Part shown: piece after piece, positions 3,294 through 26,981 of the stretch | Numbering within the stretch: position 1 is the stretch's first letter | Layout of the letters: every line of letters starts with the position of its first letter | Assembly: GCF_003934165.1 (NCBI RefSeq) | Contig: NZ_RKST01000032.1 | Location: forward strand, 1 to 45,180 | Origin: Borborobacter arsenicus | Lineage (GTDB): Bacteria; Pseudomonadota; Alphaproteobacteria; Rhizobiales; Rhizobiaceae | Length of the DNA stretch: 45,180 nt | Direction of reading: 5' to 3' | The notes under the pieces: model-generated | What the model saw: the letters and a program-made list of their open reading frames with translations, nothing else | The model's database searches: none | What the model was told of the DNA's origin: nothing | Translations under genes and position numbers: made by a program

Positions 3294-3324
3294 TTGACCT
3301 TCCATCGGCTGGAACGTCCATGGT
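3294..3324 (+). promoter_or_regulatory. CueR/HmrR-type promoter of copB
   Basis: -35 TTGACC at 3294-3299, a 19-base spacer, and a -10-like CATGGT at 3319-3324. The spacer holds the imperfect dyad ACCTTCC-N7-GGAACGT. A 19-base spacer is the hallmark of promoters activated by MerR-family regulators, and CCTTCC...GGAAGG dyads are typical of CueR. It lies 92 bases before the copB ATG. Related sites occur before copA, copZ and cueR in this window. Confidence 0.65.
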
Positions 3325-3415: not shown

Positions 3416-5488
3416 ATGGAACGCGACCATCACCACGGGCATCACGCCGAAGCTGCGGGTCAACATCGATCTGGCCATGGCAAAGCCTCGCCCGGCCACG
3501 CCGAGGGTTCCGGTCATACGGGCCATGACCACGGCCAAATGGTTGCTGACTTCCGCCGGAGATTCTGGATCTCGCTTGCGCTGACCCCACCCGTCCTGTT
3601 GCTGTCGCCGATGATCCAGCATTGGCTGGGCATCCAAGGGACGATGGATTTCCAGGGTAGCGAACTTCTGCTTTTTGGCCTGTCGACGGCGGTTTACATC
3701 TATGGTGGCTGGCCTTTCCTTACCGGGTTCGTTTCGGAGATCCGGGGCGGCAGGCCTGGTATGATGACGCTGATCGCCTTGGCGATCTCGGTGGCCTATG
3801 TCTACTCGGCGGCAGTCACGTTTGGCCTTACCGGAATGTCTTTTTACTGGGAGCTGGTGACGCTGATCGTCATCATGCTCCTCGGGCATTGGCTCGAGAT
3901 GCGGTCGGTCATGGGCGCATCGCGTGCACTTGAAGAACTCGTCCGTCTTCTGCCGGACACGGCGGCGCGGCTGGATGCTTCCGGGTCAGTCACCGAAGTT
4001 CCCATCACGGAACTCGTGCCCGGCGACCGGGTTCTCGTCCGGCCCGGAGCCAAGGTGCCCGTCGACGGCACAATCCTGGAAGGAAAATCCTCGTTCAACG
4101 AGGCGATGCTCACGGGAGAATCACGGCCTGTTTCAAAGGAGAAGGGCGACAGCGCTATAGGCGGCGCAATCAACGGCGCAAATGCCGTCACCATCGAGGT
4201 CACCGCGACGGGCGACAAGACCTACCTTGCGCAAGTCATCAGCCTCGTCAGGGAGGCGCAGGCGACGCGCTCCCGCACCCAGGACGTGGCCAACCGGGCA
4301 GCGGCCTGGCTCACCTACATCGCCTTGGCGGTTGGCGTCGGCTCTCTCGCCTTCTGGCTGATGGCTGGAGAAAGCTGGGAATTCGCCGTGGAGCGGATGG
4401 TCACTGTCATGGTCATCGCCTGTCCTCACGCGCTCGGGCTGGCAGTGCCGCTGGTCGTTGCCGTAAGCACGTCGCTCAGCGCGGGAAGCGGCCTGCTGAT
4501 CCGCGACCGTGCCGCCTTCGAGCGCGCGCGCAACCTGGATGCGGTCGTCTTCGACAAGACCGGAACGCTGACCGAGGGGCGGTTCGGCGTGAGCGACATC
4601 GTCCTTCTCGCGGGCGGGAGCGAGGAGGAAGAACTGCGGTTCGCGGCATCCGTGGAGAGCCACTCCGAGCATCCGATCGCGCAAGGGATAGTGGCCGCCG
4701 CAAAAGAGAGGGGCATCGGCTTCCCCGCTCCCGGCCAGGTCCGCAACCTCACGGGCGAAGGCATAGTCGCGGAGGTCGACGGACAGGATGTCCGGATCGT
4801 GAGTCCCGGTAATCTCGTCAGGCAGGGCAACCCGGTGCCCGGGGCGCGCCTCGGCGAGCTCGAGGCAGAAGGCAAGACCGTCGTCGTGCTCGTCCGCGCC
4901 GGCGTGCCCCGCGCCCTGTTCGCGCTTGCGGACATCGTGAGGCCCGAGTCCCGGAATGCCATTGCGGAGTTGAAGGCCCTCGGCATCAGCTCGGTGATGC
5001 TGACTGGCGATGCCACGGGCGTGGCGGCATCCGTCTCCCGCGACCTCGGCATCGCGGAGTACTTCGCCGAGGTGCTTCCCGACGAGAAGTCAGCCAAGAT
5101 CAAGGAGCTGCAGTCCCGCGGTCTCCAAGTCGCCATGGTCGGAGACGGCGTGAACGACGCCCCGGCGCTGGTGCAGGCCGACCTGGGTGTCGCGATCGGC
5201 GCCGGAACCGATGTCGCGGTCGAATCCGCCGACGTCGTGCTGGTCAGGAGCGACCCGAGGGACGTGGCCGCCATCCTCGGGCTTTCCCGCGCCACCTACA
5301 GGAAGATGGTGCAGAACCTGATCTGGGCGACCGGATACAATGCCGTCGCCATACCGATGGCTGCCGGCATCACGTTCGGAACCGGGTTCCTGATGACGCC
5401 TGCGGTCGGTGCCGTGTTTATGTCCGCCAGCACGATCATCGTGGCAATCAATGCCCAGCTGCTGAGGCTGTATCGAAAGAAGGGTTGA
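3416..5488 (+). CDS. copB: Copper-exporting P1B-type ATPase, CopB class (CPH motif)
   Basis: A 690-residue ATPase that pumps copper or silver out of the cytoplasm across the inner membrane. Visible motifs are a His-rich metal-binding N-terminus (HHHGHH and repeated GH pairs, residues 4-40), LTGES at 232-236, CPH at 336-338 (the P1B-3 signature, in place of CPC), DKTGT at 380-384, SEHP and GDGVND at 576-581. There is no CXXC-type HMA domain. Length is normal for CopB. It is first in a copper block and lies behind a CueR-type promoter. CopB-type pumps have been linked to Cu(II) or Cu(I)/Ag(I) export; the exact ion cannot be told here. It complements the CPC-type CopA at 24379-26913. Confidence 0.93.
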   Translation: MERDHHHGHHAEAAGQHRSGHGKASPGHAEGSGHTGHDHGQMVADFRRRFWISLALTPPVLLLSPMIQHWLGIQGTMDFQGSELLLFGLSTAVYIYGGWPFLTGFVSEIRGGRPGMMTLIALAISVAYVYSAAVTFGLTGMSFYWELVTLIVIMLLGHWLEMRSVMGASRALEELVRLLPDTAARLDASGSVTEVPITELVPGDRVLVRPGAKVPVDGTILEGKSSFNEAMLTGESRPVSKEKGDSAIGGAINGANAVTIEVTATGDKTYLAQVISLVREAQATRSRTQDVANRAAAWLTYIALAVGVGSLAFWLMAGESWEFAVERMVTVMVIACPHALGLAVPLVVAVSTSLSAGSGLLIRDRAAFERARNLDAVVFDKTGTLTEGRFGVSDIVLLAGGSEEEELRFAASVESHSEHPIAQGIVAAAKERGIGFPAPGQVRNLTGEGIVAEVDGQDVRIVSPGNLVRQGNPVPGARLGELEAEGKTVVVLVRAGVPRALFALADIVRPESRNAIAELKALGISSVMLTGDATGVAASVSRDLGIAEYFAEVLPDEKSAKIKELQSRGLQVAMVGDGVNDAPALVQADLGVAIGAGTDVAVESADVVLVRSDPRDVAAILGLSRATYRKMVQNLIWATGYNAVAIPMAAGITFGTGFLMTPAVGAVFMSASTIIVAINAQLLRLYRKKG

Positions 5489-8669: not shown

Positions 8670-8675
8670 CCGTGG

Positions 8676-8710
8676 CCCGGGCGGCAATTCCGCCGCCCGG
8701 GTTTCTTTTT
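8676..8710 (+). terminator. Strong Rho-independent terminator after the copB block
   Basis: CCCGGGCGGC (8676-8685) and GCCGCCCGGG (8692-8701) form a ten-base perfect GC stem with a six-base loop, followed at once by TTTCTTTTT. It starts seven bases after the stop codon of the propeller gene. Confidence 0.9.
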
Positions 8711-8724: not shown

Positions 8725-9327
8725 ATGAACACCTTTTCCAGAACTGCTTTTGCAGCCGCGCTGCTGCTTGCCGCCTCTCCGGCCTTTGCCGAAGACGCAC
8801 ACCACCCGGCTCCGGCGGAAACCACGGCCCCGACGGAGCCTGCTCCCCCGCCGTCCGCTCCCGCTCCGGGTGCTGGAGCCGCGATGCCAGGCGGCATGAT
8901 GGGCGGCGACATGATGAAGATGATGCAGGAGATGATGGGCCGCCACGCGGGGATGATGCGAGGCATGATGGCCGACGGGACGGGGATGCAGGACGGCATG
9001 ACGGCGAGGATGATGGCTCCTGAGCATGTCGAGGGGCGGATCGCGTTCCTGCGGGCGGAACTCAAGGTAACGAGCGCGCAGGAACCGCTCTGGGAGGCCG
9101 TGGCCGCTGCCATGCGGGAGAACGCGCGTGCGTCCACGGGAACGATGCGGCAGGAGTCGACTGCCGGGGGACTGTCGGCTTCGCTCGAGCGGCGGGAGCA
9201 GCAGCTGTCGGCCCGTCTTGAAGCGGTGAAGCGATTGAGGACAGCGGTCGAACCCTTCTACGCGTCGCTTGACGAAGCGCAAAAGACGGCTGCCGACACA
9301 CTGCTGATCTCGATGGGAATGATGTAA
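8725..9327 (+). CDS. Met-rich periplasmic Spy/CpxP-like (LTXXQ) protein
   Basis: A 200-residue exported protein. Signal peptide MNTFSRTAFAAALLLAASPAFA, then a Pro/Ala linker, then a Met-rich stretch (about 20 Met between residues 50 and 100, for example GGMMGGDMMKMMQEMMG) that could bind Cu(I). A helical C-terminal half follows with LKVTSAQEPLW and FYASLDEAQKTAADTLL, two segments of the LTXXQ type found in Spy/CpxP chaperones. AAGGAG lies before the ATG at 8725. It starts a new unit just after the terminator. Inferred role: protecting envelope proteins during copper stress, or copper buffering. Confidence 0.8.
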   Translation: MNTFSRTAFAAALLLAASPAFAEDAHHPAPAETTAPTEPAPPPSAPAPGAGAAMPGGMMGGDMMKMMQEMMGRHAGMMRGMMADGTGMQDGMTARMMAPEHVEGRIAFLRAELKVTSAQEPLWEAVAAAMRENARASTGTMRQESTAGGLSASLERREQQLSARLEAVKRLRTAVEPFYASLDEAQKTAADTLLISMGMM

Positions 9328-9360: not shown

Positions 9361-9411
9361 TCCAAGCGCGTTTCCCGGATGGGAAAGCATTCAAACGACA
9401 GGAGATTACCG

Positions 9412-9690
9412 ATGACAGCAAACAACCCTGATCGTTCTCAGGATATGCGGCCTGTTGGCCACGCGTGCGGGTTCTGGAGGTCGAGAGCAGGCCTGGTCGC
9501 CTTGGGGTTCCTGCTCATCGGAGCTTCAGTGCTTCTCTTCGAGCACAGGCTCCACGTCCTCGGCTACCTGCCGTTCGTGCTCCTGCTGGCATGTCCGCTG
9601 CTCCATCTGTTCCTGCATCGCGGGCATGGCCACGGCGGGCACCATCGCTCTGCGCCGCCGCCGCGCAATCGCGTCGACACGGGAGCATGA
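9412..9690 (+). CDS. DUF2933-type small membrane protein
   Basis: A 92-residue protein with two hydrophobic helices (LVALGFLLIGASVLLF and YLPFVLLLACPLLHLFLH) and a His-rich tail (HRGHGHGGHH). Small two-helix proteins with an LLxCPLxHLFxH segment belong to the DUF2933 family, often found in copper and heavy-metal loci. GGAG precedes the ATG at 9412. The next gene starts four bases after its stop, so the two are probably co-translated. Function unknown; the His tail suggests metal binding at the membrane. Confidence 0.75.
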   Translation: MTANNPDRSQDMRPVGHACGFWRSRAGLVALGFLLIGASVLLFEHRLHVLGYLPFVLLLACPLLHLFLHRGHGHGGHHRSAPPPRNRVDTGA

Positions 9691-9693: not shown

Positions 9694-10365
9694 ATGGAAG
9701 CGTCTCCTTCCGCTTATGGACTCTGGAGCCTGGTCATCATCAACAGCGCGGTCTTCATTCTTTTCGCCTTCAGCTTCTTAAGGCCGCGGAGCGGCCGCGA
9801 CTGGACGTCTTTCGGCGCCTTCAGCGCTTTCCTCATCGCGCTGTTCGCCGAGATGTACGGCTTCCCGGTCACGATCTACTTGATGTCCGGCTGGCTGCAG
9901 AGTCGTTATCCGGACACGGACTGGTTCGCCCATGATGCCGGACACCTGCTGGAGATGACCCTCGGCTGGCAGGGAAATCCGCATTTCGGGCCGTTCCACC
10001 TCCTCAGCTTTGTCCTCGTCGGCGGAGGCTTCCTGCTGGTTTCGGCCTCCTGGCGGGTGCTGTTCGATGCGCAGAGGAACGGACGTCTCGCGACCGATGG
10101 ACCGTACGGGTACGTCCGCCATCCTCAGTACGTTGGGTTCGTGCTGGTGCTGCTGGGCTTCCTGGTGCAGTGGCCAACGCTGCTGACGCTCGCGATGTTT
10201 CCGGTGCTCGTCGCGATGTATGTGCGGCTTGCCCGGCGCGAGGAGGCCGAGGTGCGCGCCCGCTTTGGGGAGGCCTACGACCGCTACGCCGCCGGGGTCC
10301 CGGCATTCCTGCCCCGATGGGCTAAAGTTCCCGCCACGGGTGGCGGGATGAATAGACGGAGCTGA
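9694..10365 (+). CDS. Isoprenylcysteine carboxyl methyltransferase-like membrane protein
   Basis: A 223-residue membrane protein. The C-terminal half has the SAM-binding signature of the ICMT/PEMT family: GPYGYVRHPQYVGF near residues 139-152, then EEAEVRARFGEAYDRYAAGV. About five hydrophobic segments are visible. Bacteria lack prenylated proteins, so the true methyl acceptor is unknown; such genes recur next to DUF2933 and copper ATPase genes. It begins four bases after the DUF2933 gene and ends five bases before the metallo-hydrolase gene, so it may bridge the copper and metabolic blocks in one transcript. Confidence 0.8.
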   Translation: MEASPSAYGLWSLVIINSAVFILFAFSFLRPRSGRDWTSFGAFSAFLIALFAEMYGFPVTIYLMSGWLQSRYPDTDWFAHDAGHLLEMTLGWQGNPHFGPFHLLSFVLVGGGFLLVSASWRVLFDAQRNGRLATDGPYGYVRHPQYVGFVLVLLGFLVQWPTLLTLAMFPVLVAMYVRLARREEAEVRARFGEAYDRYAAGVPAFLPRWAKVPATGGGMNRRS

Positions 10366-10370: not shown

Positions 10371-11735
10371 ATGACCTTGTCGATTTCGTTTCTGGGCGGC
10401 GCAGGCACCGTGACAGGCTCGCGTTTCCTCCTCGAGCACGACGGCCGGCAGGTACTTGTCGACTGCGGCCTCTTCCAGGGCCTCAAGCAGCTGAGGCTCC
10501 GCAACTGGGCTAAGTTCCCCGTCGATCCCGCGAGCATCGACGCAGTCCTGCTGACGCACGCGCATCTCGACCATTCCGGCTACCTGCCCGCGCTGGTGCG
10601 CGATGGCTTCCGGGGGAAGGTCCATGCTTCCAGCGCCACCGTCGAGCTCTGTGAGATTCTCCTGAAAGACAGCGGCTTCCTCCAGGAGAAGGACGCCGAA
10701 TACGCCAACAGGCACGGCTTCTCCAAGCACAAGCCCGCACTCCCGCTCTACACGCTGAAAGATGCCGAGGCTGCCTTGCGGCACCTCCATGCGGTACAGT
10801 TCCACGAGAGGCTTTCCCTGCCCGACGGCCCCGACATCCTGCTCAGGCGCGCGGGGCACATCCTGGGGGCTGCCTCCCTCGAATGCAGCTGGGGCGGCGT
10901 CAGGATCGCCTTCTCCGGAGACCTTGGCCGCTTCGGCGACCCGGTCATGGTGAATCCGGAATCTGTGCCTGAAGCCGACTACGTGGTCGTGGAGTCCACT
11001 TACGGGAACAGGCGTCACGAAAAGCGCGATCCTCAGGACGCGCTGGCGGAGATCGTAAACCGGACGATCGCACGGGGAGGCACCGTCGTAATTCCAGCCT
11101 TCGCCGTCGGTCGCGCGCAGTCTCTGCTCTACCACCTGGAGCGTCTCGTCTCCTCCGGACGCGTGTCCAGGATTCCGGTGTTCCTGGACAGTCCGATGGC
11201 GATCAACGCGACAGAACTGCTGCACCGCCATTCCGGCGACCACAGGCTCACGCCGGACGAATGCGAGCGCGCCTGCGGCATCGCCGAATACGTCCGAGGG
11301 GTCGGGGAATCGAAGGCCCTCACTTCCAACCCGATGCCTAAGGTGATCGTCTCGGCGAGCGGCATGGCGACCGGGGGGCGCGTCCTGCATCACCTGAAAA
11401 GATACGCACCGGAAAGGCGTAACACGATCCTGTTCAGCGGCTTCCAGGCCGCCGGGACTCGGGGCGCCGACATGCTCGATGGGGCGGACCGCATCAAGAT
11501 CCATGGCGAGTACATCCGGGTCCGGGCCGAGGTCGCGAACCTGCCGATGCTGTCCGCCCATGCCGATGCCGACGAGATCATCGCCTGGCTCGGCCGCTTC
11601 CATCGGCCGCCCAGGATGACCTTCATCTCGCACGGTGAGCCCGAGGAGTCAGATGCATTGCGCCGGCGCATAAAGGACGAGCTCGGCTGGGCGTGCCGTG
11701 TCCCCGAACATCTGGAAAAGGCAGTTCTCGAATGA
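10371..11735 (+). CDS. Beta-CASP metallo-beta-lactamase-fold hydrolase, probable RNase
   Basis: A 454-residue cytoplasmic protein with the full pattern of RNA-processing metallo-hydrolases: HAHLDHSG (near residues 60-67), SGDLGR, VVESTYGNRRH, FAVGRAQSLL, SASGMATGGRVLHHL, SAHADADEI and SHGEPEESD. Relatives (CPSF-73/Ysh1-like bacterial proteins) cut RNA using two zinc ions. Its stop overlaps the start of the AMP phosphorylase gene (ATGA), implying coupled translation. In that context it could supply nucleotides from RNA, which is an inference; the substrate has not been shown for this group. Confidence 0.88.
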   Translation: MTLSISFLGGAGTVTGSRFLLEHDGRQVLVDCGLFQGLKQLRLRNWAKFPVDPASIDAVLLTHAHLDHSGYLPALVRDGFRGKVHASSATVELCEILLKDSGFLQEKDAEYANRHGFSKHKPALPLYTLKDAEAALRHLHAVQFHERLSLPDGPDILLRRAGHILGAASLECSWGGVRIAFSGDLGRFGDPVMVNPESVPEADYVVVESTYGNRRHEKRDPQDALAEIVNRTIARGGTVVIPAFAVGRAQSLLYHLERLVSSGRVSRIPVFLDSPMAINATELLHRHSGDHRLTPDECERACGIAEYVRGVGESKALTSNPMPKVIVSASGMATGGRVLHHLKRYAPERRNTILFSGFQAAGTRGADMLDGADRIKIHGEYIRVRAEVANLPMLSAHADADEIIAWLGRFHRPPRMTFISHGEPEESDALRRRIKDELGWACRVPEHLEKAVLE

Positions 11736-13282
11736 CCGGACAGAGCAACTCCGCCGCACAGGCCGCCCCGCGGCAAGGCCATCCGCTGAGAAGCCGCCGC
11801 CTGGGAATCCACACCCAGCACGAAGCGGTGGTGTTCATGCGGACAGACTGCCACGTATGCCGCTCGGAGGGGCTTGCCGCTAACTCCCGCGTGTTGCTTT
11901 CGGCAAACGGCCGGGACGTGATCGCCACGCTCCACCAGGTCTCCTCGGACTTCATCGAAATCGACGAGGCCGGGCTCTCCGAGACCGCGTGGCAGCACCT
12001 GCAGGCAGCCGACGGGGCGGCTGTCTTCGTGCGGCATCCCGATCCGGTCGAATCGTTCGGCAAGGTGAGGGGGAGGATCTTCGGCACCCGGCTCGGCGAC
12101 CGGGATTTCGCGGCCATTCTCGGGGACATCTCCGCAGACCGCTACTCGGACGTGGAGCTGTCGGCCTTCCTCACGGCAACATCCGCGTTTCCCCTCGACG
12201 ACGGCGAAACTTTGGCGCTCACCCGGTCCATGGTCGAAATCGGCGATAGCCTCGACTGGGACGCGTCGCCTGTCGTCGACAAGCACTGCGTCGGGGGGCT
12301 GCCCGGGAACCGCACCACGCCGATCGTCGTGGCGATCGCCGCGGCGCATGGCCTGACGATGCCGAAGACATCCTCCCGGGCCATCACGTCTCCCGCGGGT
12401 ACGGCCGATGCCATGGAGACCCTAGCTCCGGTCGATCTCGACCTCGCGGACATCCGCCGCGTCGTCGAGCGGGAGTTGGGCTGCGTCGTCTGGGGAGGCG
12501 CCGTACGCCTCAGCCCGGCCGACGACATCCTCATCCGCGTCGAGCGCGCCCTCGACATCGATTCCGAGGGGCAGCTCGTCGCATCGGTGATGTCGAAGAA
12601 GATCGCTGCGGGATCGACCCACCTTGTACTGGACATCCCCGTCGGTTCAACGGCGAAGGTCCGGAGCGAGGCGGCCGGCAGGGCGCTCGCGGCGCGCCTG
12701 ACCATGGTCGGCGAAGCCTTCGGGCTGAAGTCGGCGACGATCTTTACCGACGGATCGCAGCCTGTCGGCCGCGGCATCGGCCCGGCACTCGAGGCTATGG
12801 ACGTGCTTGCCGTGCTCCAGCAGGCGGGGCACGCGCCTGCGGACCTGCGGGACCGCGCCTGCACGCTCGCCGGCACGCTCCTGGAACTGGGCGGCCGCGC
12901 AGGGCCTGGCGCAGGCAAGGCGCTCGCCGAAAGCACGATCGCCGACGGCAGGGCATGGGCGAAGTTCCAGCGCATCTGCGAGGCCCAGGGGGGCATGCGG
13001 ATCCCGCCTGTCGCCCGCCAGCGGATGCCCCTCCTGGCTCCGCGTTCGGGTACGCTCCGCTCCATCGACAACCGCCGCATCGCAAGGGTGGCGAAGCTCG
13101 CGGGGGCTCCCGGATCGAAGGCAGCCGGAGTCGAGATGCACGTCAGGCTCGGGGCAGCGCTGGAAGCGGGCGAACCGCTATGCACCGTCTGCTCGGAAAC
13201 GACAGGAGAACTGCAATACGCGCTGGACTACGCACGCGATGTCCTCGCGATCTTCGGAATAGATAAGGAGCCCACGCCATGA
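11732..13282 (+). CDS. AMP phosphorylase / long-form thymidine phosphorylase
   Basis: A 516-residue enzyme. The length and the motif DKHCVGGLPGNRTTPIVV (near residues 186-203) mark the long AMP-phosphorylase-like branch of the nucleoside phosphorylase family II, not the 440-residue DeoA branch. Also visible: TSSRAITSPAGTADAMETL and an N-terminal domain of about 85 residues. Archaeal relatives split AMP with phosphate to adenine and ribose 1,5-bisphosphate; thymidine phosphorylase activity is the alternative. It overlaps by four bases with both neighbours (ATGA at each end), so hydrolase, phosphorylase and PRPP synthetase should be made together. Confidence 0.85.
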   Translation: MTGQSNSAAQAAPRQGHPLRSRRLGIHTQHEAVVFMRTDCHVCRSEGLAANSRVLLSANGRDVIATLHQVSSDFIEIDEAGLSETAWQHLQAADGAAVFVRHPDPVESFGKVRGRIFGTRLGDRDFAAILGDISADRYSDVELSAFLTATSAFPLDDGETLALTRSMVEIGDSLDWDASPVVDKHCVGGLPGNRTTPIVVAIAAAHGLTMPKTSSRAITSPAGTADAMETLAPVDLDLADIRRVVERELGCVVWGGAVRLSPADDILIRVERALDIDSEGQLVASVMSKKIAAGSTHLVLDIPVGSTAKVRSEAAGRALAARLTMVGEAFGLKSATIFTDGSQPVGRGIGPALEAMDVLAVLQQAGHAPADLRDRACTLAGTLLELGGRAGPGAGKALAESTIADGRAWAKFQRICEAQGGMRIPPVARQRMPLLAPRSGTLRSIDNRRIARVAKLAGAPGSKAAGVEMHVRLGAALEAGEPLCTVCSETTGELQYALDYARDVLAIFGIDKEPTP

Positions 13283-14208
13283 CAAGGCCGCTTGTTTTCG
13301 CACTGCCAGGCAACGAGTCCATGGCTGAACGGCTCCGCGCCGCCCTCGGCGGGGAGCGTGGGGCACTGGATACGCGCAACTTCCCGGACAGCGAAACCTA
13401 CCTGAGGTTCGCGACCGATCCCAAGGACAGGGACGTGGTGCTTGTCTGCACGCTCGACCGTCCTGACGACAAGTCCTTGCGGCTCCTGTTCGCCGCGGAT
13501 GCCGCGAGGGACCTTGGTGCCTCTAGCGTGGGCCTCGTGGCTCCCTACCTGGCCTATATGAGGCAGGACCGCCGCTTCCAACCGGGCGAGGCGATCACTT
13601 CACGCACGTTCGCGCGGATAGTCTCCTCGCATGTCGACTGGCTTGTGACCGTCGACCCCCATCTCCATCGCTACGCCAGCCTCGAAGAGGTCTACCCCAT
13701 CCCCGCTAGGGCCGTCCGGTCCGCACCGCTTCTGTCCGACTGGATCAGGGCGAACGTGGACCGCCCGTTGCTGCTCGGACCCGACGTGGAAAGCGAGCAA
13801 TGGGTCTCGGAGGTGGCGGGCGCTATCGGCGCTCCCTATCAGGTGCTGCGGAAGACCAGGTACGGCGACAGGAATGTCGAGGTCGCCGTCCCGGACCTGG
13901 GCGTCTTCGCCGGGCATACGCCAGTCCTCGTGGACGACATCGTGTCTTCCGGCAGGACCATGCTGGAGACGGCATGCCGCCTCCAGCAACAGGGACTGAA
14001 GCGCCCCGTCCTCGTGACCGTGCACGCCCTGTACTCCGACGAGACCTACCGCAACCTCAAGGCAAGCGCCTCGGCCGTGGTCTCGGCTGATTCCGTTGTC
14101 CATCCCTCCAACGTCATCGATCTCTCAAGTATACTCGCCGAAGCCGCCGCACAGGCGATCGGTCCGGCCTACGGCAACAACACAAGCAGGAAAGCCCTCC
14201 CAAAATGA
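13279..14208 (+). CDS. prs: Ribose-phosphate pyrophosphokinase-like protein (PRPP synthetase)
   Basis: A 309-residue cytoplasmic enzyme of the phosphoribosyltransferase fold. Motifs: RNFPDSETYLRF near the N-terminus, YLAYMRQDRRFQPGEAITSR, DPHLHRY (in place of the usual DLHAGQ), and the PRPP loop VLVDDIVSSGRTM. It interconverts ribose 5-phosphate + ATP and PRPP + AMP. The divergent DPHLHRY segment and the location suggest a specialised copy rather than the housekeeping Prs. Start and stop overlap the neighbouring genes by four bases. Running in reverse, it could recover ATP from PRPP and AMP; this is a hypothesis. Confidence 0.87.
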   Translation: MTRPLVFALPGNESMAERLRAALGGERGALDTRNFPDSETYLRFATDPKDRDVVLVCTLDRPDDKSLRLLFAADAARDLGASSVGLVAPYLAYMRQDRRFQPGEAITSRTFARIVSSHVDWLVTVDPHLHRYASLEEVYPIPARAVRSAPLLSDWIRANVDRPLLLGPDVESEQWVSEVAGAIGAPYQVLRKTRYGDRNVEVAVPDLGVFAGHTPVLVDDIVSSGRTMLETACRLQQQGLKRPVLVTVHALYSDETYRNLKASASAVVSADSVVHPSNVIDLSSILAEAAAQAIGPAYGNNTSRKALPK

Positions 14209-14666
14209 CCAACCACAGCAAATCCCTCCTCGCGGCCCTAGCAATGGTCCTGTCTTCCACGGCTGCGGGAGCAGCGGCGGGAGAGTCCATCGCCGTGTAC
14301 AAAACCCCTTGGTGCGGCTGTTGTCACGCCTGGGCAGAGGCGGTCGGAAAGGCTGGGTATCAAGTGAAGACGGTCGATCTTGAAGACCTTTCGCAGATTC
14401 GCAAGCAGGCCGGCGTTCCCACCGAAATGGAAGGCTGCCACGTCGCAGCCATCGAAGGGTACTTCCTCGAGGGCCACGTCCCTCTCGAAGCGATCGAGAA
14501 GCTTCTTGCCGAGCGCCCGGCCATCAGTGGCCTAGCTGTACCAGGGATGCCCCAGGGATCGCTTGGAATGGGAGAGGATCCTGCGGCGACCTATCAGGTC
14601 TATGCCGTTGCGCGCGATGCCTCTGGACCTGCCGCCGTATACTACGAAGCGGGAAGCAGGCGGTAA
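14205..14666 (+). CDS. DUF411 metal-binding protein, exported
   Basis: A 153-residue protein with a signal peptide (about 1-26, ALAMVLSSTAAGAAAG), then VYKTPWCGCCHAWAE with the CXCC motif of DUF411. EGCHVAAIEGYFLEGHVP and GLAVPGMPQGSLGMG are further family signatures with Cys, His and Met ligands. Family members bind copper in the periplasm. Its ATG overlaps the prs stop codon (ATGA), so a periplasmic copper protein is translationally coupled to nucleotide enzymes. A second DUF411 gene is at 28103-28546, and the two differ clearly in sequence. Confidence 0.87.
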   Translation: MTNHSKSLLAALAMVLSSTAAGAAAGESIAVYKTPWCGCCHAWAEAVGKAGYQVKTVDLEDLSQIRKQAGVPTEMEGCHVAAIEGYFLEGHVPLEAIEKLLAERPAISGLAVPGMPQGSLGMGEDPAATYQVYAVARDASGPAAVYYEAGSRR

Positions 14667-14683
14667 AAAGCCGGAGCAGGACG

Positions 14684-15232
14684 ATGCCGCAGTTCGCGTA
14701 TTCCGCCGAGGCCACGGTTCGCGTCGACGCTCCGGCCGAGGCGTTGTTCGGGTACCTGGACAACCATGGGAACCTATCCGCACACATGGATCAGCCATCC
14801 TGGGCCATGATGGGGGCCAGGATGGAAGTCCACATGGACGCGAGCGGAACCCGATCGGTCGGCTCGAAGTTCGGGTTCACGGGAAGCTTCCTGGGAATGC
14901 CGTTGGCTGTCGACGAGATCATCACTGAACGCAAACCGCCATTCCTGAAGACCTGGACGACGATCGGCGAGCCGAGGCTCTGGGTGATCGGGCGCTACAG
15001 GATGGGATTGAGGATAGCTCCCCGATCCGGGTCGTCGCTGCTGACCGTGTTCATCGGCTACGACCTGCCGCAAGGCTTCGGAACGCGCATGCTCGGCTGG
15101 CTACTGGGCGGCATCTACGCCAGATGGTGCACCCGGCGCATGGCGGGCGACGCCGCGCGGCATTTTCGCAAAGCGACCATCGATGCCGGGACGCAAGCGC
15201 CCGGCCGACAATCAGGAGGAGAACAACAATGA
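14684..15232 (+). CDS. SRPBCC-fold (START/Bet v1-like) protein
   Basis: A 182-residue cytoplasmic protein. The pattern [21 protein letters not shown]...[21 protein letters not shown]...[12 protein letters not shown] fits the SRPBCC hydrophobic-ligand fold. No catalytic residues can be assigned. AGCAGG lies before the ATG. Its last codons overlap the phosphoketolase start, whose ribosome binding site AGGAGGAG lies inside this gene. Role in the block is unknown; binding of a lipid or aromatic ligand is possible. Confidence 0.7.
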
Positions 15233-17619
15233 CCGGCAAGCAGCAGACGGTTCAAGGGACGCTTTCCGCCGAAGAGCTTATGGCGATCCACGCCTACTGG
15301 CGAGCCGCCAACTATCTTACAGTCGGGCAGATCTACCTGCTCGACAACCCGCTCCTGCGCGAGCCTCTGAGGCTGGAACATATCAAACCCCGGCTCCTGG
15401 GTCATTGGGGGACCTCGCCGGGACTCAACTTCGTCTACGCCCATCTGAACAGGCTTATCCGGCTGCGCGACGCGAACATGATCTATGTCTGCGGACCGGG
15501 GCATGGCGGCCCCGCGATGGTCGCCAACACCTACCTCGAGGGTACCTACAGCGAGCTCAATCCCGACATTTCCCGGGACGAGGCAGGCTTGCGGAAGCTC
15601 TTCCGCCAGTTTTCGTTTCCAGGAGGCATTCCCAGCCATGCCGCGCCCGAGGTTCCGGGGTCGATCAACGAGGGTGGTGAACTCGGGTATTCCCTGTCGC
15701 ACGCCTACGGTGCCGCCTTCGATAATCCTGACCTGATCGTCGCCTGCGTGATCGGCGACGGCGAGGCAGAGACCGGGCCGCTTGCCGCGGCCTGGCACTC
15801 GAACAAGTTCCTGAACCCCGCGCATGACGGTGCCGTGCTGCCCATCCTTCACCTCAACGGGTACAAGATCGCCAATCCCACCGTGCTCGACCGCATCCCG
15901 CCGGAGGAACTGCGCTCGCTCTTGATCGGCTACGGGCACGAACCGCTGTTCGTGGAAGGGGATGACCCGTCGGAGATGCACGAGCGGATGGCATCGGTGC
16001 TGGAGGAGGCTTTCGGGAAAATCCGAGAGATCCAAGAACACGCCCGTGCAGGGAGTGGAGGGAAAAAACGCCCCCGATGGCCGATGATCGTCCTGCGGAG
16101 CCCGAAAGGCTGGACCGGGCCGAAAGAGGTCGATGGCTTGAAGACCGAAGGTTTCTGGCGTTCTCATCAAGTGCCGCTCTCGGGCCTCGCCGGGAACGCG
16201 GAGCACCTCAGGATGCTCGAGGATTGGCTTGGGAGCTATCGCCCCGAAGAACTGTTCGGCGAGGACGGCAGCCCCGTCCCGGAGGTCCTCTCCGCAACGC
16301 CAGCCGGGTCCCGGCGCATGAGCGCCAATCCCCATGCGAACGGGGGAATGCTCCGCAAGAGCCTGGACATGCCCGGGCTCGCTCCGCATGCTGTCCAGGT
16401 CAGCCGCCCCGGCGAGAGGAAGGCCGAAGCCACGAGGGTGATGGGCGGCTTCCTTCGCGAAGTGATGCGTTTGAACGGAGCCCACCGCAACTTCCGTCTC
16501 GTCGGCCCCGACGAGACAGCATCTAACAGGCTCCAGGACGTCTTCGAGGTGGCGGGGCGCGCCTGGATGGAGCAGGTCCTTCCGGAAGACACGGATCTTG
16601 GCCCCGATGGCCGGGTGTTGGAAATTCTTTCGGAACATACCTGCCAGGGCTGGCTCGAAGGCTATCTGCTCACCGGACGGCACGGCCTGTTCTCCTGCTA
16701 CGAGGCCTTCATCCACATCGTGGATTCAATGTTCAACCAGCATGCAAAATGGCTGGACGCGAGCCGCGACATCCCATGGCGGCATCCCGTCTCGTCTCTC
16801 AACTACCTGCTGACGAGCCATGTGTGGCAGCAGGACCACAACGGTTTCAGCCACCAGGATCCCGGGTTCGTCGATGTCGCCCTGAACAAGAAGGCCGACA
16901 TCGTGCGCGTCTACTTCCCGCCGGACGCGAACACGCTGCTGTGCGTTACAGACCATGTCCTCAGGACCTGGGACCGCATCAACATCATCGTGGCCGGAAA
17001 GGCACCCTCCTGGCAGTGGTTGTCCATGGACCAGGCGAGGGCGCACTGCGAGGTTGGGATCGGCATCTGGGACTGGGCTTCCAGCAAGGGACCGAGCGAC
17101 CCGGACGTGGTGATGGCATGCGCCGGAGATGTCCCCACGGTAGAGACCCTCGCTGCTGTGCAGATCCTGAGGGAGCACATGCCGGATCTCAATGTAAGGG
17201 TCGTCAACGTGGTCGACCTGATGACCCTGCAGCCACGGGAGGTCCATCCGCATGGCCTGTCCGACCGCGAGTTCGACGGGCTGTTCACGGCCGACAAGCC
17301 CGTCATTTTCGCCTATCACGGCTACCCGTGGACGATCCACAGGCTGACATACCGAAGGAGGAACCACGCCAACTTCCACGTCCGGGGCTTCAACGAAGAA
17401 GGCACGACGACCACGCCCTTCGACATGACCGTGTTGAACGGGCTGGACCGATACCACCTGGTGCAGAGCGTGATTGAGCGCACGCCAAAGGTGGAATCAA
17501 CCGGCTTCCGGCTGAAACAGCTGATGGAAACCAAGCTGCTTGATCATTACGGTTACGTTCGGGCTCATGGGCAGGATTTGTCGGAAATCCGCGATTGGAA
17601 GTGGAACGCGCTGGTTTGA
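15229..17619 (+). CDS. xfp: Phosphoketolase
   Basis: A 796-residue thiamine-diphosphate enzyme, the usual length. It cleaves xylulose 5-phosphate (or fructose 6-phosphate) with phosphate to acetyl phosphate plus glyceraldehyde 3-phosphate (or erythrose 4-phosphate). Signatures: [25 protein letters not shown], the ThDP motif [19 protein letters not shown] and [11 protein letters not shown]. The ATG at 15229 is set by AGGAGGAG; it overlaps the previous stop. Acetate kinase follows after seven bases, giving a complete route from pentose phosphate to acetate and ATP. Confidence 0.95.
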
Positions 17620-17626
17620 TGACACG

Positions 17627-18826
17627 ATGATCGCCGACACAATTCTCGTACTGAACGCTGGCTCGTCGAGCCTCAAGTTCGGCGTGTTCGAGCTGTGCAC
17701 GCAGTTGCCTGTCCTGATGCGAGGCAGCCTTGCGTCACTAAATGGCAAGCCGCAGATGAGCGTCTTCGGTCCGGAAGGCAGCCAGGCACAGCACGCGGAT
17801 CTGGCAGACGGTCCGATCAGCACCGAAGAAGCACTGGAGTTCGTCTTTGCCGAAGTCGAGGGGAAGGGGCTCCTTCAATCTGTCAGCGCAGTCGGCCACC
17901 GAATCGTTCATGGGGGACGCGATTTCACTGCCGCGACCATCCTCGATCCGCCAACGCTCGAGGCACTGCGAGCGCTTGCCCCCGTAGCTCCGCTTCACCA
18001 GCCACACAATCTCGACATCGTCGAACTTGCTGTCCGCTTCCTGCCCAAGGCCGTGCAGATCGGTTGCTTCGATACCGCCTTTCACGCCGCACGGCCGAGG
18101 TTGGCGACGCTTTACGCACTCCCGCGCGCGCTGACGGATTCAGGCATCATGTCCTTCGGCTTCCATGGCATATCCTACGGTCATATCGCGTCGCGGCTGC
18201 GCGAGCGTTATGGGTCGGCTGCCGGCGGGCGTGCCATCGTCGCCCATCTCGGCAGCGGAGCCAGCCTCTGCGCGATGCATGAAGGAAAGAGCGTCGCAAC
18301 CACAATGGGGTTTTCGCCGCTCGACGGTTTGGTGATGGGCACGCGTTCTGGCTCGATCGACCCTGGGGTCATCCTCTATCTGTTGCAGAACCGTAAGATG
18401 CGTGCCCACGAGATCTCGCGACTTCTCTACGATCGGTCGGGCCTGCTCGGTGTTTCTGGCATCAGCGATGATATGCAGACCTTGGTTGAGTCTGACGACC
18501 CGCAATCAAAAGAGGCGATCGATCTTTTTGTCTACCGTGCCGGTCGCGAGATCGGATCGCTGGCCGCCGCGCTGGGTGGATTAGACACATTGGTGTTCAC
18601 CGCCGGGATCGGTGAAAATTCCCCCTTGATCCGCGACAAGATTTGCGAGGCCGCGGCCTGGCTCGGCGTGACACTTGATGCCGAGCGTAACCGACAAGGC
18701 AACGAGCGTATCAGCGCCCATGGCTCTGTGGTCGACGTTTTGGTGATCCCGACAGAGGAGGAGAGAGCCGTCGCAGAGCAGGTGTCGTCGGCAATGTCGC
18801 AAGGGGTGCCAGTTCGAGACAAGTGA
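17627..18826 (+). CDS. ackA: Acetate kinase (acetate/propionate kinase family)
   Basis: A 399-residue enzyme that converts acetyl phosphate and ADP to acetate and ATP. Signatures: VLNAGSSSLKFGVF at the N-terminus, VGHRIVHGG, HLGSGASLCA, MGTRSGSIDPGV and FTAGIGENSPLIR. The usual GFHGTSH is here FGFHGISYGH, so the position of the catalytic-region His is Tyr; GFHGxSY variants occur in a proteobacterial subgroup. The start is seven bases after the phosphoketolase stop with only a weak ribosome site, so coupling is likely. Codon choice looks less biased than in its neighbours, hinting at separate ancestry. Confidence 0.93.
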   Translation: MIADTILVLNAGSSSLKFGVFELCTQLPVLMRGSLASLNGKPQMSVFGPEGSQAQHADLADGPISTEEALEFVFAEVEGKGLLQSVSAVGHRIVHGGRDFTAATILDPPTLEALRALAPVAPLHQPHNLDIVELAVRFLPKAVQIGCFDTAFHAARPRLATLYALPRALTDSGIMSFGFHGISYGHIASRLRERYGSAAGGRAIVAHLGSGASLCAMHEGKSVATTMGFSPLDGLVMGTRSGSIDPGVILYLLQNRKMRAHEISRLLYDRSGLLGVSGISDDMQTLVESDDPQSKEAIDLFVYRAGREIGSLAAALGGLDTLVFTAGIGENSPLIRDKICEAAAWLGVTLDAERNRQGNERISAHGSVVDVLVIPTEEERAVAEQVSSAMSQGVPVRDK

Positions 18827-19065: not shown

Positions 19066-20472
19066 ATGGTCGATCATAGTGAAACTCCGGCTCCAGGCAT
19101 TCGGGACCTGGGAGCCGTCCCCCATTCGCTGAACAGCAGCTGCTTCTGCATCAGCGTGGACCGGGACGAGCTCGCCAGGGAGTTCCAGACGAGTGCTGAA
19201 ACACACACGGCGCTTTCCGCCATGGGAGACGAGCATGCGAACATGTTCGCCGCGCTTCCGGTGTTCGTTGCGCGGCAGCACCTGGACAGGATGGCAGAGA
19301 TCGTCCGGGCCGCGGAGGCGGTTATATCATCGCGCGCCTATCGCGACCTCGTGCTCGAAAATGCGCCCGCTATCGCGCAGTTCGAGCCGCGGGCGAGAGG
19401 CGTCTTCATGAGCTTCGACTTCCATCTGTCATCCGACGAGCCGAAGCTCATCGAGATCAACACGAACGCAGGGGGCGCTCTCCTCAACCTCTCGCTGGCG
19501 CGGGCTCAGCGCGCCTGTTGCGAGGCCGTCGAGCCGATGATGCCCGGTGCGGCCGCCCTCGACGCGCTGGAGCATCGGTTCATGGACATGTTTCTCGCCG
19601 AATGGCATCTCGAACGTGGCGAACTGCCGCTCCGCCGAATCGCCATCGTCGACGAGCAGCCGGAGGGTCAGTACCTCTACCCCGAGTTTCTGCTCTTCCA
19701 GCAGCTGTTCGTCCGGAACGGCATCGACGCGGTCATCGCCGACCCGTCGGCGCTGTCGATGAGCGACGGCATGCTCCGGCACGAACGGGGCCCGGTCGAT
19801 CTGGTCTACAACCGACTGACGGATTTCATGCTTGAGCGGCCGGCACACCACGCCATACGCAAGGCGTACCTGGAAGGTTCGGTCGTGCTGACACCGCACC
19901 CGAGAGCACACGTTCTATACGCCAACAAGAGAAATCTGGCGGTGCTCAGCGACCACGCCCGGTTGAGCGCGCTCGGGATTCCAGACGACGTTTCGACGAC
20001 ACTCGTGGCTGGTGTTCCCAGCACCGAAACGGTCAAAGCATCCAAGGCTGACTCGCTTTGGTCCAGGCGGCGTAAGCTGTTCTTCAAGCCTGCGTCTGGG
20101 TTCGGAAGCAGGGCTGCCTATCGGGGGGACAAGCTGACCAGACGAGTGTGGGAGGAAATCCTCGCGGGGGACTACGTTGCCCAGGAACTTGTTGCTCCCG
20201 GCGAGAGGATGATCGGAGCGCCTGAGTCCCCGACACCGCTCAAGTTCGACGTGCGGAACTACGTCTACGGCGGAGAGGTGCAGTTCGTGACGGCACGTCT
20301 TTACCAGGGCCAGACCACCAATGCCCGTACTCCGGGAGGCGGCTTTGCGCCGGTGTTCACTACTTCAGAAAAAGATTCCACTGGCGGGTTGAGCGACATC
20401 CTCGAACACGCGATTCTGCCCTGCGACAAAGCCACAGCATCATGCGGAGTTCCTGCCGCAGAAAGGACATAA
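19066..20472 (+). CDS. ATP-grasp-like protein of unknown function
   Basis: A 468-residue cytoplasmic protein; GGAGG lies five bases before the ATG at 19066. Visible: FDFHLSSDEPKLIEINTNAGG (residues about 120-140), FFKPASGFGSRAAYRGDK and DYVAQELVAPGE, then LKFDVRNYVYGGEVQF and RLYQGQTTNARTPGGGFAPV. The lysine/glycine-loop, the EINTN metal-ligand style segment and the order fit an ATP-grasp ligase, where ATP activates a carboxylate for joining to an amine or thiol. I do not recognise the exact family or substrate. It is between acetate kinase and the CBS-BON protein and transcribed the same way. Confidence 0.65.
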   Translation: MVDHSETPAPGIRDLGAVPHSLNSSCFCISVDRDELAREFQTSAETHTALSAMGDEHANMFAALPVFVARQHLDRMAEIVRAAEAVISSRAYRDLVLENAPAIAQFEPRARGVFMSFDFHLSSDEPKLIEINTNAGGALLNLSLARAQRACCEAVEPMMPGAAALDALEHRFMDMFLAEWHLERGELPLRRIAIVDEQPEGQYLYPEFLLFQQLFVRNGIDAVIADPSALSMSDGMLRHERGPVDLVYNRLTDFMLERPAHHAIRKAYLEGSVVLTPHPRAHVLYANKRNLAVLSDHARLSALGIPDDVSTTLVAGVPSTETVKASKADSLWSRRRKLFFKPASGFGSRAAYRGDKLTRRVWEEILAGDYVAQELVAPGERMIGAPESPTPLKFDVRNYVYGGEVQFVTARLYQGQTTNARTPGGGFAPVFTTSEKDSTGGLSDILEHAILPCDKATASCGVPAAERT

Positions 20473-20475: not shown

Positions 20476-21132
20476 ATGATCGCGAAGGATATGATGACAC
20501 CAGCGCCGACCACGGTATGTCCGGAGCACAGCGTGTGGCACTTGGCCCGGATCATGTTGGCCGAGCATGTAAGCGGGATTCCGGTGCTCACTGATGACGG
20601 CACGCTTGCTGGCATAGTGACCGAGGGCGATCTTCTTCGCCGAACAGAACTCGGAACCGAAGATGCCTTCCCCGAAGATTCCCTCCACGATGCCGATTCA
20701 CTTGCCAGACTCTACGCGAAGAGCCGTAGCTGGAAGGTCGGCGATGTCATGACCAAGGATGTCGTCACCGTGGACGAGGACGCGTCCGCGCGCGAAATCG
20801 CTATGCTGATGAACCGACATGGCATCAAGCGCCTCCCGGTCATGCGCAACGGGCGCTTGACCGGCATTGTCAGCCGCGCGGATCTCCTGAAGGTCATTTC
20901 GATACCCAGGCCCCGTGCGCAGATTCGGGGTGACGAGGCGCTGCGGCGTGCCATTGTCGCACGTCTGAAGGATGCCGCGTCTGTCTTATCAGCGCAGCCA
21001 GCTGTCGCTGTGAAGGACGGAATAGTGACTGTCACCGGAACTGTGCGGTCACCGGCTGAGCGCGATGTCATTCGCTCGATCGTCGAGATCGTTGCCGGCG
21101 CAGGTTTCGAAGATCATCTCAGCGGTGCATGA
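20476..21132 (+). CDS. CBS-pair and BON-domain protein
   Basis: A 218-residue cytoplasmic protein. Two CBS motifs, MIAKDMMTPAPTTV...VSGIPVLTDDGTLAGIVTEG (residues 1-60) and VGDVMTKDVVTVDEDA...RLPVMRNGRLTGIVSRADLL (about 90-140), are followed by a BON-like domain (about 150-218, VKDGIVTVTGTVRSPAERD). CBS pairs usually bind adenine nucleotides and report energy charge; BON domains bind membranes or partner proteins. It lies four bases after the ATP-grasp gene with AAAGGA before the ATG. In an operon that would make or use AMP/ATP, an energy-sensor role is plausible but inferred. Confidence 0.85.
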   Translation: MIAKDMMTPAPTTVCPEHSVWHLARIMLAEHVSGIPVLTDDGTLAGIVTEGDLLRRTELGTEDAFPEDSLHDADSLARLYAKSRSWKVGDVMTKDVVTVDEDASAREIAMLMNRHGIKRLPVMRNGRLTGIVSRADLLKVISIPRPRAQIRGDEALRRAIVARLKDAASVLSAQPAVAVKDGIVTVTGTVRSPAERDVIRSIVEIVAGAGFEDHLSGA

Positions 21133-24378: not shown

Positions 24379-26913
24379 CTATGCGGCTGCCGTCTTCGCA
24401 GCCGCCGTGGGGGTGGTAGCCCCCAAGGGAGCCTGGAATCGCTTCAGGCGCAGGGCGTTTGCGAGCACGAAGACGCTCGACAACGCCATCGCTCCGGCGG
24501 CCAGCATCGGCGACAACAGCGTGCCTCCGAAGGTATAGAGCGCGCCGGCGGCGACCGGGATCAGGCTGGCGTTGTAGGCGAAGGCCCAGAACAGGTTCTG
24601 CCGGATGTTCCGGATCGTCGCCTTCGACAGTGCGATCGCGTTCGCGACACCCAGGAGATCACCCGACATCAGGACCACGTCGGCGCTCTCGATCGCCACG
24701 TCGGTCCCGGTGCCGATCGCCAGGCCCACGTCCGCTTCGGCGAGCGCGGGGGCATCATTGATGCCGTCTCCGACGAAGCTGACCACGCGTCCGCCGTCGC
24801 GCAGGCGCTTGACCGCGTCGACCTTGCCGTCAGGCAGGACCTCGGCGACGACCTCGTCGATGCCGAGCTCGGCCGCGATGGCTTCCGCCGTCCGGCGGTT
24901 GTCTCCTGTGATCATCGCAATCTTCAGCCCGAGCGCGTGCAGAGCGCGGATCGCCTGAGGCGTCGTCGGCTTGACCGGATCGGACACCGCGATCATGGCG
25001 GCGAGCCGGCCATCGATCGCGGCATAGAGCGGAGTCCTGGCCTTCCGGCCGAACTCGGTGGCTTGTTCGGAGAAGCTCTCCACCTCTATGCCGAGCTGCG
25101 CCATGTAGCGGTCCGCGCCGATGGCGATTTCGTGTCCGCCGGAGCGCGCCTTCACGCCGAAGCCGGGCACCGCGTCAAATCCTTCGATCGCGTGCAGTGG
25201 CAGGCCGTTCGCCTTCGCGGTGGCAACGATGGCCGCGGCAACCGGATGCTCGGAATGCACCTCGACGGAGGCCACCAGCGACAACACCCGATCACGGTCG
25301 AAGCCTTCCGCTACTACCAGGTCGGTCAGTTCCGGGCGTCCGGCGGTCAGCGTCCCGGTCTTGTCGAGCACCACGACATCGATGCCCTTGAGCGTCTGGA
25401 GCGCTTCGCCGTTGCGGAACAGGATGCCCAGTTCGGCGGCGCGGCCGGTGCCGACCATGATCGAGGTCGGAGTCGCGAGGCCCATGGCGCATGGGCAGGC
25501 TATGATGAGAACGGCGACCGCGTTGACCAGCGCGAAGGCGAGGGCGGGCTGCGGGCCGAAGAATAGCCAGGTCAGGAAAGTCAGCGCCGCGGCGGCCATG
25601 ACCGTCGGCACGAACCACGCGGTGACCTTGTCGACCATTGCCTGGATCGGCAGCTTCGAGCCCTGTGCGGCTTCGACCATCCTTATGATCTGGGCAAGGA
25701 GCGTGTCCGCGCCCACCTTGGTCGCGCGGTAGGTGAAGCTGCCCGTCTTGTTGATGGTGCCGCCGACGACTTGCGAACCCTCGCTCTTGATGACGGGAAC
25801 AGGCTCGCCCGAAATCATGGACTCGTCGACATAGGACGAGCCGCCGAGAACCTCGCCGTCGACGGGAACCTTGTCGCCCGGTCGAACCTGCAGCACGTCG
25901 CCAACGCGCACTTCTTCAAGCAAAACATCGAGGAACTCGCCATTGTGCTGGACACGGGCGGTTTTTGCCTGCAGCCCGATCAGCCGCTTGATGGCTTCGC
26001 TGGTGCGGCCCTTTGCCTTTGCTTCGAGAAAGCGACCGAGGAGAATGAGGGTGATGATCACCGCCGAGGCCTCGTAATAGACGTTGGCGGTGCCAGCAGG
26101 CAGCACCGACGGCGCGAACGTCGCGACGACGGAGTAGCCCCAGGCGGCGGTCGAGCCGAGGATGACAAGCGAGTTCATCTCGGGAGCGAGTCGCAAGAGG
26201 GCAGGGATGCCCTTCCGGTAGAACCGCATGCCCGGGCCGAACTGCACGATGGTGGCCAGCACGAAGAAGGCCAGAAAGAGCGGCCGCTGGCCGATGTTCA
26301 TCAGAAGCCAATGATGAAAGGCGGGAATCGCGTGCGAACCCATCTCAAGGAGGAATATCGGCAGCGTCAGGATCGCCGCGACCGATACATCCCGCTTGAG
26401 CAGGCGCAGTTCCTTGTCCTTGGCCTCCTGCCTCGCTTCGGAGCCGCCGACGGAGGCCGCCGCCCGGCGCGGCTCGTATCCGGCCTGCCTGATGGCCGCC
26501 TCGATGGCAGAAGGTGCGACAGCTCCCGAAATCGCTTCGATGGTGGCACGCTCGGTTGCAAGATTGACCGAGGCCTTGAGCACACCCGGAACCGCCGCAA
26601 GCGCCTGTTCGACACGTCTGACGCACGAGGCGCAGGTCATGCCTTCGATCTCGACCTCGGCCGCCTCTGTCGGGACGTGATATCCGGCGGAGCTGATCGC
26701 GGCGATGATCGCGGCCTGATCGGCAACTCCGTCGAACGTCACGTCGGCGGATTCGGTTGCCAGATTGACAAAAGCTGCCTTCACGCCCGGCACCTTGCCG
26801 ATCGCGAGTTCAACGCGGCGCACGCAAGAGGCGCAGGTCATTCCTTCGATGCCGATACTCTGCCGCACGTCGTTGTTGGTTCCTGGTCGAGGCCATCCGC
26901 TGTGAGCGTTCAT
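24379..26913 (-). CDS. copA: Copper-exporting P1B-1 ATPase CopA with two HMA domains
   Basis: An 844-residue Cu(I) pump of the inner membrane. Two N-terminal metal-binding domains each carry GMTCASC (Cys 27/30 and Cys 94/97). Further signatures: ISGEPVPV, the membrane CPC at 473-475, DKTGTLT from 517, SEHPVAAAI and GDGINDAP near the C-terminal third. The ATG at 26913 is chosen because AGAGGAA lies nine bases upstream and HMA domains start soon after; the frame upstream is non-coding and contains the promoter. A CueR-type promoter lies 38 bases upstream. It differs from the CPH-type CopB at 3416-5488 in both motif and N-terminus. Confidence 0.96.
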
Positions 26914-26950
26914 TTTGAGCTGTTCCTCTATCGCTTTGCAGTATGGTCGA

Positions 26951-26981
26951 GTTCTAGAGGTTCCAGTGTCCGGAAGGTCAA
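26951..26981 (-). promoter_or_regulatory. CueR/HmrR-type promoter of copA
   Basis: On the minus strand: -35 TTGACC (26976-26981), a 19-base spacer, -10 TAGAAC (26951-26956). The dyad is ACCTTCC-N7-GGAACCT. The layout is the same as at the other three CueR-type sites of the window. Confidence 0.75.

Follow-up and report, generated by a model that had tools for sequence, protein, structure and literature searches.

A copper-resistance region gene run of Borborobacter arsenicus, tentatively read as a mobile RNA-to-acetate unit

Within positions 1 to 45,180 of contig NZ_RKST01000032.1 of Borborobacter arsenicus (hereafter the window), a run of genes on the + strand between positions 10371 and 18826 encodes a predicted beta-CASP metallo-beta-lactamase (MBL) ribonuclease, a long-form nucleoside/nucleoside monophosphate (NMP) phosphorylase, a Prs-like protein, a canonical phosphoketolase and an acetate kinase (AckA). 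This cassette is tentatively read as a mobile proteobacterial stress-energy unit which would turn RNA into acetate and ATP, a reading given slightly less than an even chance. It draws on the tight gene run, the recurrence of the set elsewhere, the protein families and NMP-type motifs, the finding that the single AckA gene and the single phosphoketolase-family (XFP) gene of the host genome both lie inside the run, and literature tables that place genes annotated as its counterparts in Bradyrhizobium diazoefficiens under low-oxygen control. The RNA-to-acetate reading had been put forward in a first-pass annotation of the DNA; it gains from these points and loses on copper induction, on the link from ribose 1,5-bisphosphate (R15P) and on generality.

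In the proposed route, the beta-CASP nuclease would cut RNA to 5'-nucleotides, and the phosphorylase would convert NMP and phosphate to base and R15P. R15P would then reach ribose 5-phosphate (R5P) through phosphoribosyl diphosphate (PRPP), formed by host PhnN, and/or through the cassette Prs-like enzyme, after which host Rpi and Rpe would supply xylulose 5-phosphate, to be converted to acetyl-phosphate and finally to acetate and ATP. No electron acceptor would be required as far as acetate, and the beneficiaries would be cells low in oxygen or with metal-damaged respiration. We infer these reactions and the flux through them, the R15P step foremost, together with co-transcription of the run and any link to copper.

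The gene run and its predicted enzymes

The five genes were confirmed on the + strand where the first-pass annotation had placed them, in the order MBL (10371–11735), phosphorylase (11732–13282), Prs-like (13279–14208), a DUF411 protein (14205–14666; PF04214, 82 bits, cut-off 27; present in 7 of the 80 related loci described below), an SRPBCC/Polyketide_cyc2-like protein (14684–15232; PF10604, 22.8 bits, under the cut-off of 27.4), phosphoketolase (15229–17619) and acetate kinase (17627–18826). The ATGA overlaps claimed for MBL/phosphorylase, phosphorylase/Prs and Prs/DUF411 are exact, and a fourth joins the SRPBCC-like gene, previously overlooked, to the phosphoketolase gene. The remaining gaps are of 17 bases (DUF411 to SRPBCC-like) and 7 bases (phosphoketolase to AckA). 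Corrected starts, all ATG and with open reading frames (ORFs), were placed at 11732 for phosphorylase, 15229 for phosphoketolase and 17627 for acetate kinase.

The MBL protein shows the features of beta-CASP ribonucleases of the TTHA0252/aCPSF1-like type, with MBL, Beta-Casp and RMMBL domains (PF00753, PF10996 and PF07521) and the HxHxDH motif (as HAHLDH), and the TTHA0252 RNase is its nearest solved structure. The type VII Cas14 MBL family (NF045584) was rejected for this protein (358.8 bits, cut-off 800). The phosphoketolase scored 1448.3 bits against NF003621 (PRK05261 subfamily; cut-off 1295), with all three XFP domains present (PF09364, PF03894 and PF09363), and the acetate kinase 352.2 bits against TIGR00016 (cut-off 293.4). 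The Prs-like protein, a ribose-phosphate diphosphokinase of the PRK07199 subfamily by profile (412.8 bits, cut-off 322; TIGR01251, 182.3 bits, cut-off 113), retains RQD, K-x-R and a DDIxSS-type loop, and an E-S-x-Q-W motif is invariant among eight cassette Prs members. Three Prs-family genes, including the cassette copy, are present in the host genome.

The phosphorylase scored 665 bits against the PRK04350 long-form subfamily (cut-off 434). Its nearest solved structure is 4ga5, an entry titled "putative thymidine phosphorylase", assumed here to come from T. kodakarensis. In the accessible part of PMC9700705, the T. kodakarensis enzyme is described as an NMP phosphorylase acting on AMP, CMP and UMP. 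Alignment with three DeoA proteins showed that PGN[KR]T, PKTSSRAITS, VWGGA and ERaLxID are common to the cassette protein and 4ga5 and lacking in DeoA, while the DeoA segments MISGRGLGHTGGTLDK and IRDVTAT are missing from the cassette protein, with ERaLxID occupying the place of IRDVTAT. We infer that the PGN[KR]T insert and ERaLxID mark NMP activity, and from its motifs the phosphorylase looks to be of the NMP type and not of the thymidine type. The annotation instead points to a usual thymidine/pyrimidine nucleoside phosphorylase, in keeping with the NCBIfam names of two models scored above their cut-offs, PRK04350 and TIGR02645. This alternative is nevertheless considered very unlikely, given a score of 191.3 bits against the DeoA model PRK05820 (cut-off 269), motifs that follow the archaeal NMP phosphorylase with the IRDVTAT segment replaced, and a separate DeoA of the host on contig C4; a plain thymidine phosphorylase was rejected on the DeoA score and the motifs.

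Recurrence of the gene set and two kinds of phosphoketolase

A plasmid protein search returned 173 records, in 105 of which a single place covered 80% or more of the query, and six plasmid regions were examined. A genome-collection scan found at least 574 phosphorylase relatives, the best 80 of which were taken as contig loci, a non-random set with many short members. To these were added 16 further long-form loci (13 picked from 59 positives of a class sample, mostly from the top of the list plus three phosphoketolase-holding genomes, and three from genomes of the same family) and 20 canonical DeoA loci. Neighbours were counted by tblastn, with an E-value limit of 1e-10 and matches over 25% or more of the query.

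MBL was found nearby in 58 of the 80 contig loci, 5/6 plasmids and 13/16 further loci, and Prs in 69/80, 6/6 and 13/16, with neither near any of the 20 DeoA loci; the placing of both next to the phosphorylase is more than chance. The phosphoketolase family was detected by the same means near 21/80 contig loci and 2/6 plasmids (0/20 DeoA loci), and AckA near 17/80 and 2/6 (1/20 DeoA loci). All five genes lay within the stored sequence for 12 of the 80 contig loci when both forms of phosphoketolase were allowed, and for two (L065 and L094) with the canonical form. The idea that the set is unique to this locus was rejected, as it recurs in plasmids and contig loci.

When tblastn and alignment results were united, a phosphoketolase-family gene was found near 29 of 87 loci (the 80 contigs, the six plasmids and the window; L002–L004, of about 4.5 kb, were omitted), eight of the canonical kind and 21 of a divergent kind. 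Those of L065 and L116 are cut by the locus ends and were counted through tblastn alone, and those of L033, L057, L073, L100 and L115 through ORF calling or alignment alone. The canonical kind (window, L032, L062, L065, L078, L084, L094 and L116) has at least 57% identity to the window protein. In the alignment the divergent kind keeps GH, GQGH, GSH, EGGYLG, PDE and N..SHQDP where phosphoketolase motifs lie. The divergent protein is found at L042 (6289–8658), L031 (11292–13679) and 19 more loci, and is annotated as "xylulose 5-phosphate 3-epimerase" in the plasmid records L031 and L033; under that name nothing on this family was found in the titles and abstract starts consulted.

By ORF families drawn from a home-made ORF caller, the phosphoketolase-family gene shares a run with phosphorylase, Prs or MBL in 5/6 canonical and 18/21 divergent loci, together 23 of the 27 with ORF calls. 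At least six gene orders were seen (TP, phosphorylase; ACK, acetate kinase): PRS-XFP-MBL-TP, XFP-PRS-MBL-TP, XFP-MBL-TP(-PRS), XFP-TP-PRS, TP-ACK-XFP, MBL-TP-ACK-XFP-PRS, TP-PRS-XFP and that of the window. On a phosphorylase tree of the quick kind with 89 rows, the canonical kind in a run occupies five rows at three places (window; L062 and L078; L084 and L094). Against 19 divergent rows these need three label changes, and supported branches force three, which could include losses. The divergent label was given to 20 loci (19 in the tree), including L048 and L055, whose gene does not fall in one called run.

These counts bear on two other readings. In the first, the cassette would serve nucleotide/PRPP salvage after stress and not energy supply, damaged RNA yielding its bases and ribose phosphate for re-use, with phosphoketolase and AckA forming a neighbouring low-oxygen fermentation unit on central sugars. 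MBL and Prs are indeed steadier partners than phosphoketolase (58 and 69 against 21 of 80; 13/16 against 0/16), and in B. diazoefficiens each half forms a predicted operon of its own (accessible part of PMC9104804). The presence of a phosphoketolase-family gene within the run in those 23 loci, in several orders, speaks against this reading, and salvage is regarded as possible, although less likely than the RNA-to-acetate reading. In the second, the genes would be passengers of a growing island for metal and low-oxygen stress, which picks up useful genes that do not make up a single pathway. Heavy-metal ATPases lie near 32/80 contig loci, as well as 6/6 plasmids and 6/16 further loci (0/20 DeoA loci); universal stress, MgtC, archaeal-type glyceraldehyde-3-phosphate dehydrogenase (GAPDH), alcohol dehydrogenase and polyhydroxyalkanoate-related genes also recur, in fewer loci; and some distant taxa carry nearly identical phosphorylases (L060/L063 and L044/L052). 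The ATGA-coupled joins, and partners that are reordered yet retained in one gene run, make this second alternative improbable. Under the RNA-to-acetate reading, the presence of the cassette in metal islands would reflect shared habitats or stresses that select for the two alike.

Near-identity of phosphorylases across distant taxa, seen also for L084/L094, is probably a sign of recent transfer. A type II (archaeal-type) GAPDH was observed near the cassette at L031, L033 and L036 and in 8/80 contig loci, and could use the second phosphoketolase product.

Low-oxygen control and points against the route

A role under low oxygen, which the first-pass annotation had suggested, agrees with published data on B. 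diazoefficiens counterparts, matched here by annotation and operon make-up and not by sequence. In the accessible part of PMC9104804, Table 2 gives predicted FixK2 boxes for bll3117-bll3116-bll3115 (thymidine phosphorylase family, Prs and MBL; box at −74) and for bll2518-bll2517 (phosphoketolase and acetate kinase; box at −89), with bll3116 entered as a predicted-operon member alone. Deletion of fixK2 lowers bll3115 31-fold, bll3117 6.6-fold, and bll2518 and bll2517 10-fold each (PMC9104804). In Table 2 of PMC6515984, bll3115, bll3116, bll3117 and bll2518 are among 71 genes raised in microoxia at both transcript and protein level under a lenient threshold; bll2517 is absent from that table. 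The same five annotated kinds of gene as in the cassette are FixK2-dependent and four of the five are microoxia-induced. They differ from the cassette in forming two operons and in that their predicted operons hold no copper genes, and no pathway is proposed for them in the accessible parts of these papers.

FNR/FixK palindromes were counted 39 times in the islands (25 of 86 loci; 1.61 Mb), a number inflated by near-duplicate loci (L050/L051 and L075/L076), against a mean of 3.1 (range 0–6) for ten scrambled palindromes. The 16 further loci (299 kb) had eight, with a scrambled mean of 1.1, and the DeoA control (397 kb) had one. At L031–L116 the palindromes are about ten times as dense (2.43 per 100 kb) as around DeoA (0.25 per 100 kb). 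The window has five FNR sites at one mismatch or better (2.5 expected), and an exact FNR-type palindrome lies at 27110–27123, close to where the ORF of the second copper ATPase begins (24379–27138, − strand). As evidence for the cassette these boxes were rejected, being island-wide but not fronting the phosphorylase operon.

Several observations weigh against the RNA-to-acetate route. An exact FNR/FixK box was found upstream of the phosphorylase operon in 0 of 77 loci (those of the 86 where a phosphorylase ORF was called and is preceded by 250 bases or more), and one with a single mismatch in eight (2.4 expected). At the cassette of the window no exact FNR box was found, the nearest one-mismatch site lying inside ackA at 18626. 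In the accessible part of PMC6515984, the four Bradyrhizobium genes are unmarked as direct FixK2 targets and unchanged in bacteroids. The phosphorylase scored 473.2 bits against the AMP/NMP phosphorylase model TIGR03327 (AMP_phos; cut-off 535), and was not assigned to that family because it lies under this cut-off and over that of PRK04350. The cassette Prs paralogue departs from the canonical motif set, lacking PDxGG and having GPDVESEQW and DDIVSSGRT where the host's two other copies have SPDxGG and SGGT/TGGT. The divergent phosphoketolase-like protein, 21 of the 29 linked genes, has 23–26% identity to the window phosphoketolase, and XFP and XFP_N matched without XFP_C at 1e-10 in 5/5 tested, while the canonical L084 protein has all three. 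The divergent protein is the commonest linked member of the family and is uncharacterised.

Also to be counted here is that none of the 16 further loci had phosphoketolase or AckA nearby. Across 385 genomes sampled evenly over the class, the long-form phosphorylase was found in 59 and canonical phosphoketolase in 15 (a count that may be low, since at most two candidates were scored per genome), and both in four, including the host, against 2.3 expected. The two genes are about 2.9 Mb apart in G421 and on different contigs in G433 and G290, those of G290 being too short to decide. Because co-occurrence in the class sample is low, the nucleotide half is taken as a general unit, and the acetate half as a recurrent, not constant, partner. 

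The R15P step adds to these points. No R15P isomerase was detected in the host genome at E up to 0.001, whereas 9/14 control genomes gave a match, three above the cut-off. The host carries PhnN on C4, and E. coli PhnN converts R15P to PRPP (accessible part of PMC9700705). Because PhnN makes PRPP from R15P, a path from R15P through PRPP to R5P by reverse Prs is chemically available, and a link to pentose 5-phosphate through these two enzymes is possible. RpiA was located on C6, Rpe on C11 near a RuBisCO (above the PRK04208 cut-off, below the type III cut-off), and a stand-alone Pta-type protein on C26. A bolder version, an isomerase-free and RuBisCO-free bacterial NMP shunt, is thought unlikely: here the altered Prs-like enzyme would run backwards (R15P + AMP to R5P + ADP, or PRPP + AMP to R5P + ATP), with acetyl-phosphate then formed by canonical phosphoketolase or by the divergent relative of about 790 residues as a new class of thiamine-diphosphate enzyme, giving respiration-free ATP from RNA under low oxygen or copper stress.

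Copper setting, known pathways and implications

The copper-resistance setting described in the first-pass annotation is real: the window holds two copper P-type ATPases, both above the TIGR01511 cut-off, multicopper oxidases, a cupredoxin and a resistance-nodulation-division efflux set of OEP, CusB-type and AcrB-family proteins. One ATPase, with a CPH motif, lies in the neighbouring block (3416–5488, + strand; 583 bits, cut-off 397). A CueR/MerR-type copper promoter-like site precedes it (3294–3324, + strand), labelled by the CueR consensus. The pattern was composed after the site had been spotted by eye and is thus not a blind test; it gave one exact match and two with three mismatches, none in 100 shuffles and none in 163 loci scanned. 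A terminator-like hairpin lies between the copper block and the cassette (8674–8703, + strand; 12 pairs, 10 of them G-C, with a T-rich tail), and has the most pairs among the region's nine terminator-like sites, where shuffled sequence would give 10.3. A sigma-70 scan found no site (2.2 expected). Copper induction of the cassette, as earlier suggested, is not directly supported, since the CueR-like site precedes the copper ATPase and the hairpin separates the blocks. As the condition for the cassette, low oxygen has more evidence behind it than copper.

Upstream of MBL, on the same strand, are genes for an LTXXQ (CpxP/Spy-like) protein (8725–9327; PF07813, 60.6 bits), a DUF2933 small protein (9412–9690, putative start; PF11666, 63 bits for ORF 9379–9690) and an ICMT/PEMT-type membrane methyltransferase assigned by family match (9694–10365; near 18/80 related loci). 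As the gaps from DUF2933 to ICMT and from ICMT to MBL are 3 and 5 bases, the transcript may begin at the LTXXQ gene, which would be its first. Downstream, also on the + strand, lie an uncharacterised protein with a glutathione/glutathionylspermidine-synthetase fold (19066–20472) and a CBS-BON protein (20476–21132; PF00571, PF04972).

The archaeal NMP shunt, or pentose bisphosphate pathway, is similar in the phosphorylase superfamily branch and motifs and in the proposed entry from NMP to R15P. It consists of NMP phosphorylase, R15P isomerase and RuBisCO, whereas the host genome lacks R15P isomerase and has its RuBisCO on another contig, in line with the earlier remark that both are missing from the window; the cassette also leaves through phosphoketolase and acetate kinase, and its phosphorylase falls below the AMP_phos cut-off. 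The phosphoketolase pathway is known from heterofermenters and bifidobacteria, and the cassette resembles it in having canonical phosphoketolase and acetate kinase; it differs in being fed, by hypothesis, with nucleotides and in its location in a metal-resistance region. The haloarchaeal non-carboxylating pentose bisphosphate pathway shares the R15P node and RuBisCO-free ribose degradation, but its enzymes are guanosine phosphorylase, ribose 1-phosphate kinase, R15P isomerase, ribulose 1,5-bisphosphate phosphatase and ribulose 1-phosphate aldolase, with no phosphoketolase listed among them (accessible part of PMC9700705). In the literature on the cassette parts, covered by titles and abstract starts with subscription journals mostly outside the scope, no proposal of an RNA-to-acetate pathway was found.

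If the RNA-to-acetate reading is true, bacteria could draw ATP from the RNA they already contain with no need of an electron acceptor, and a widespread cassette annotated merely as "thymidine phosphorylase", MBL and Prs would be explained. Two enzymes would be of particular interest, namely the Prs paralogue with its changed motif and the divergent phosphoketolase-like protein. As low-oxygen control of the annotated counterparts has already been published, a direct test would be possible in a laboratory rhizobium.

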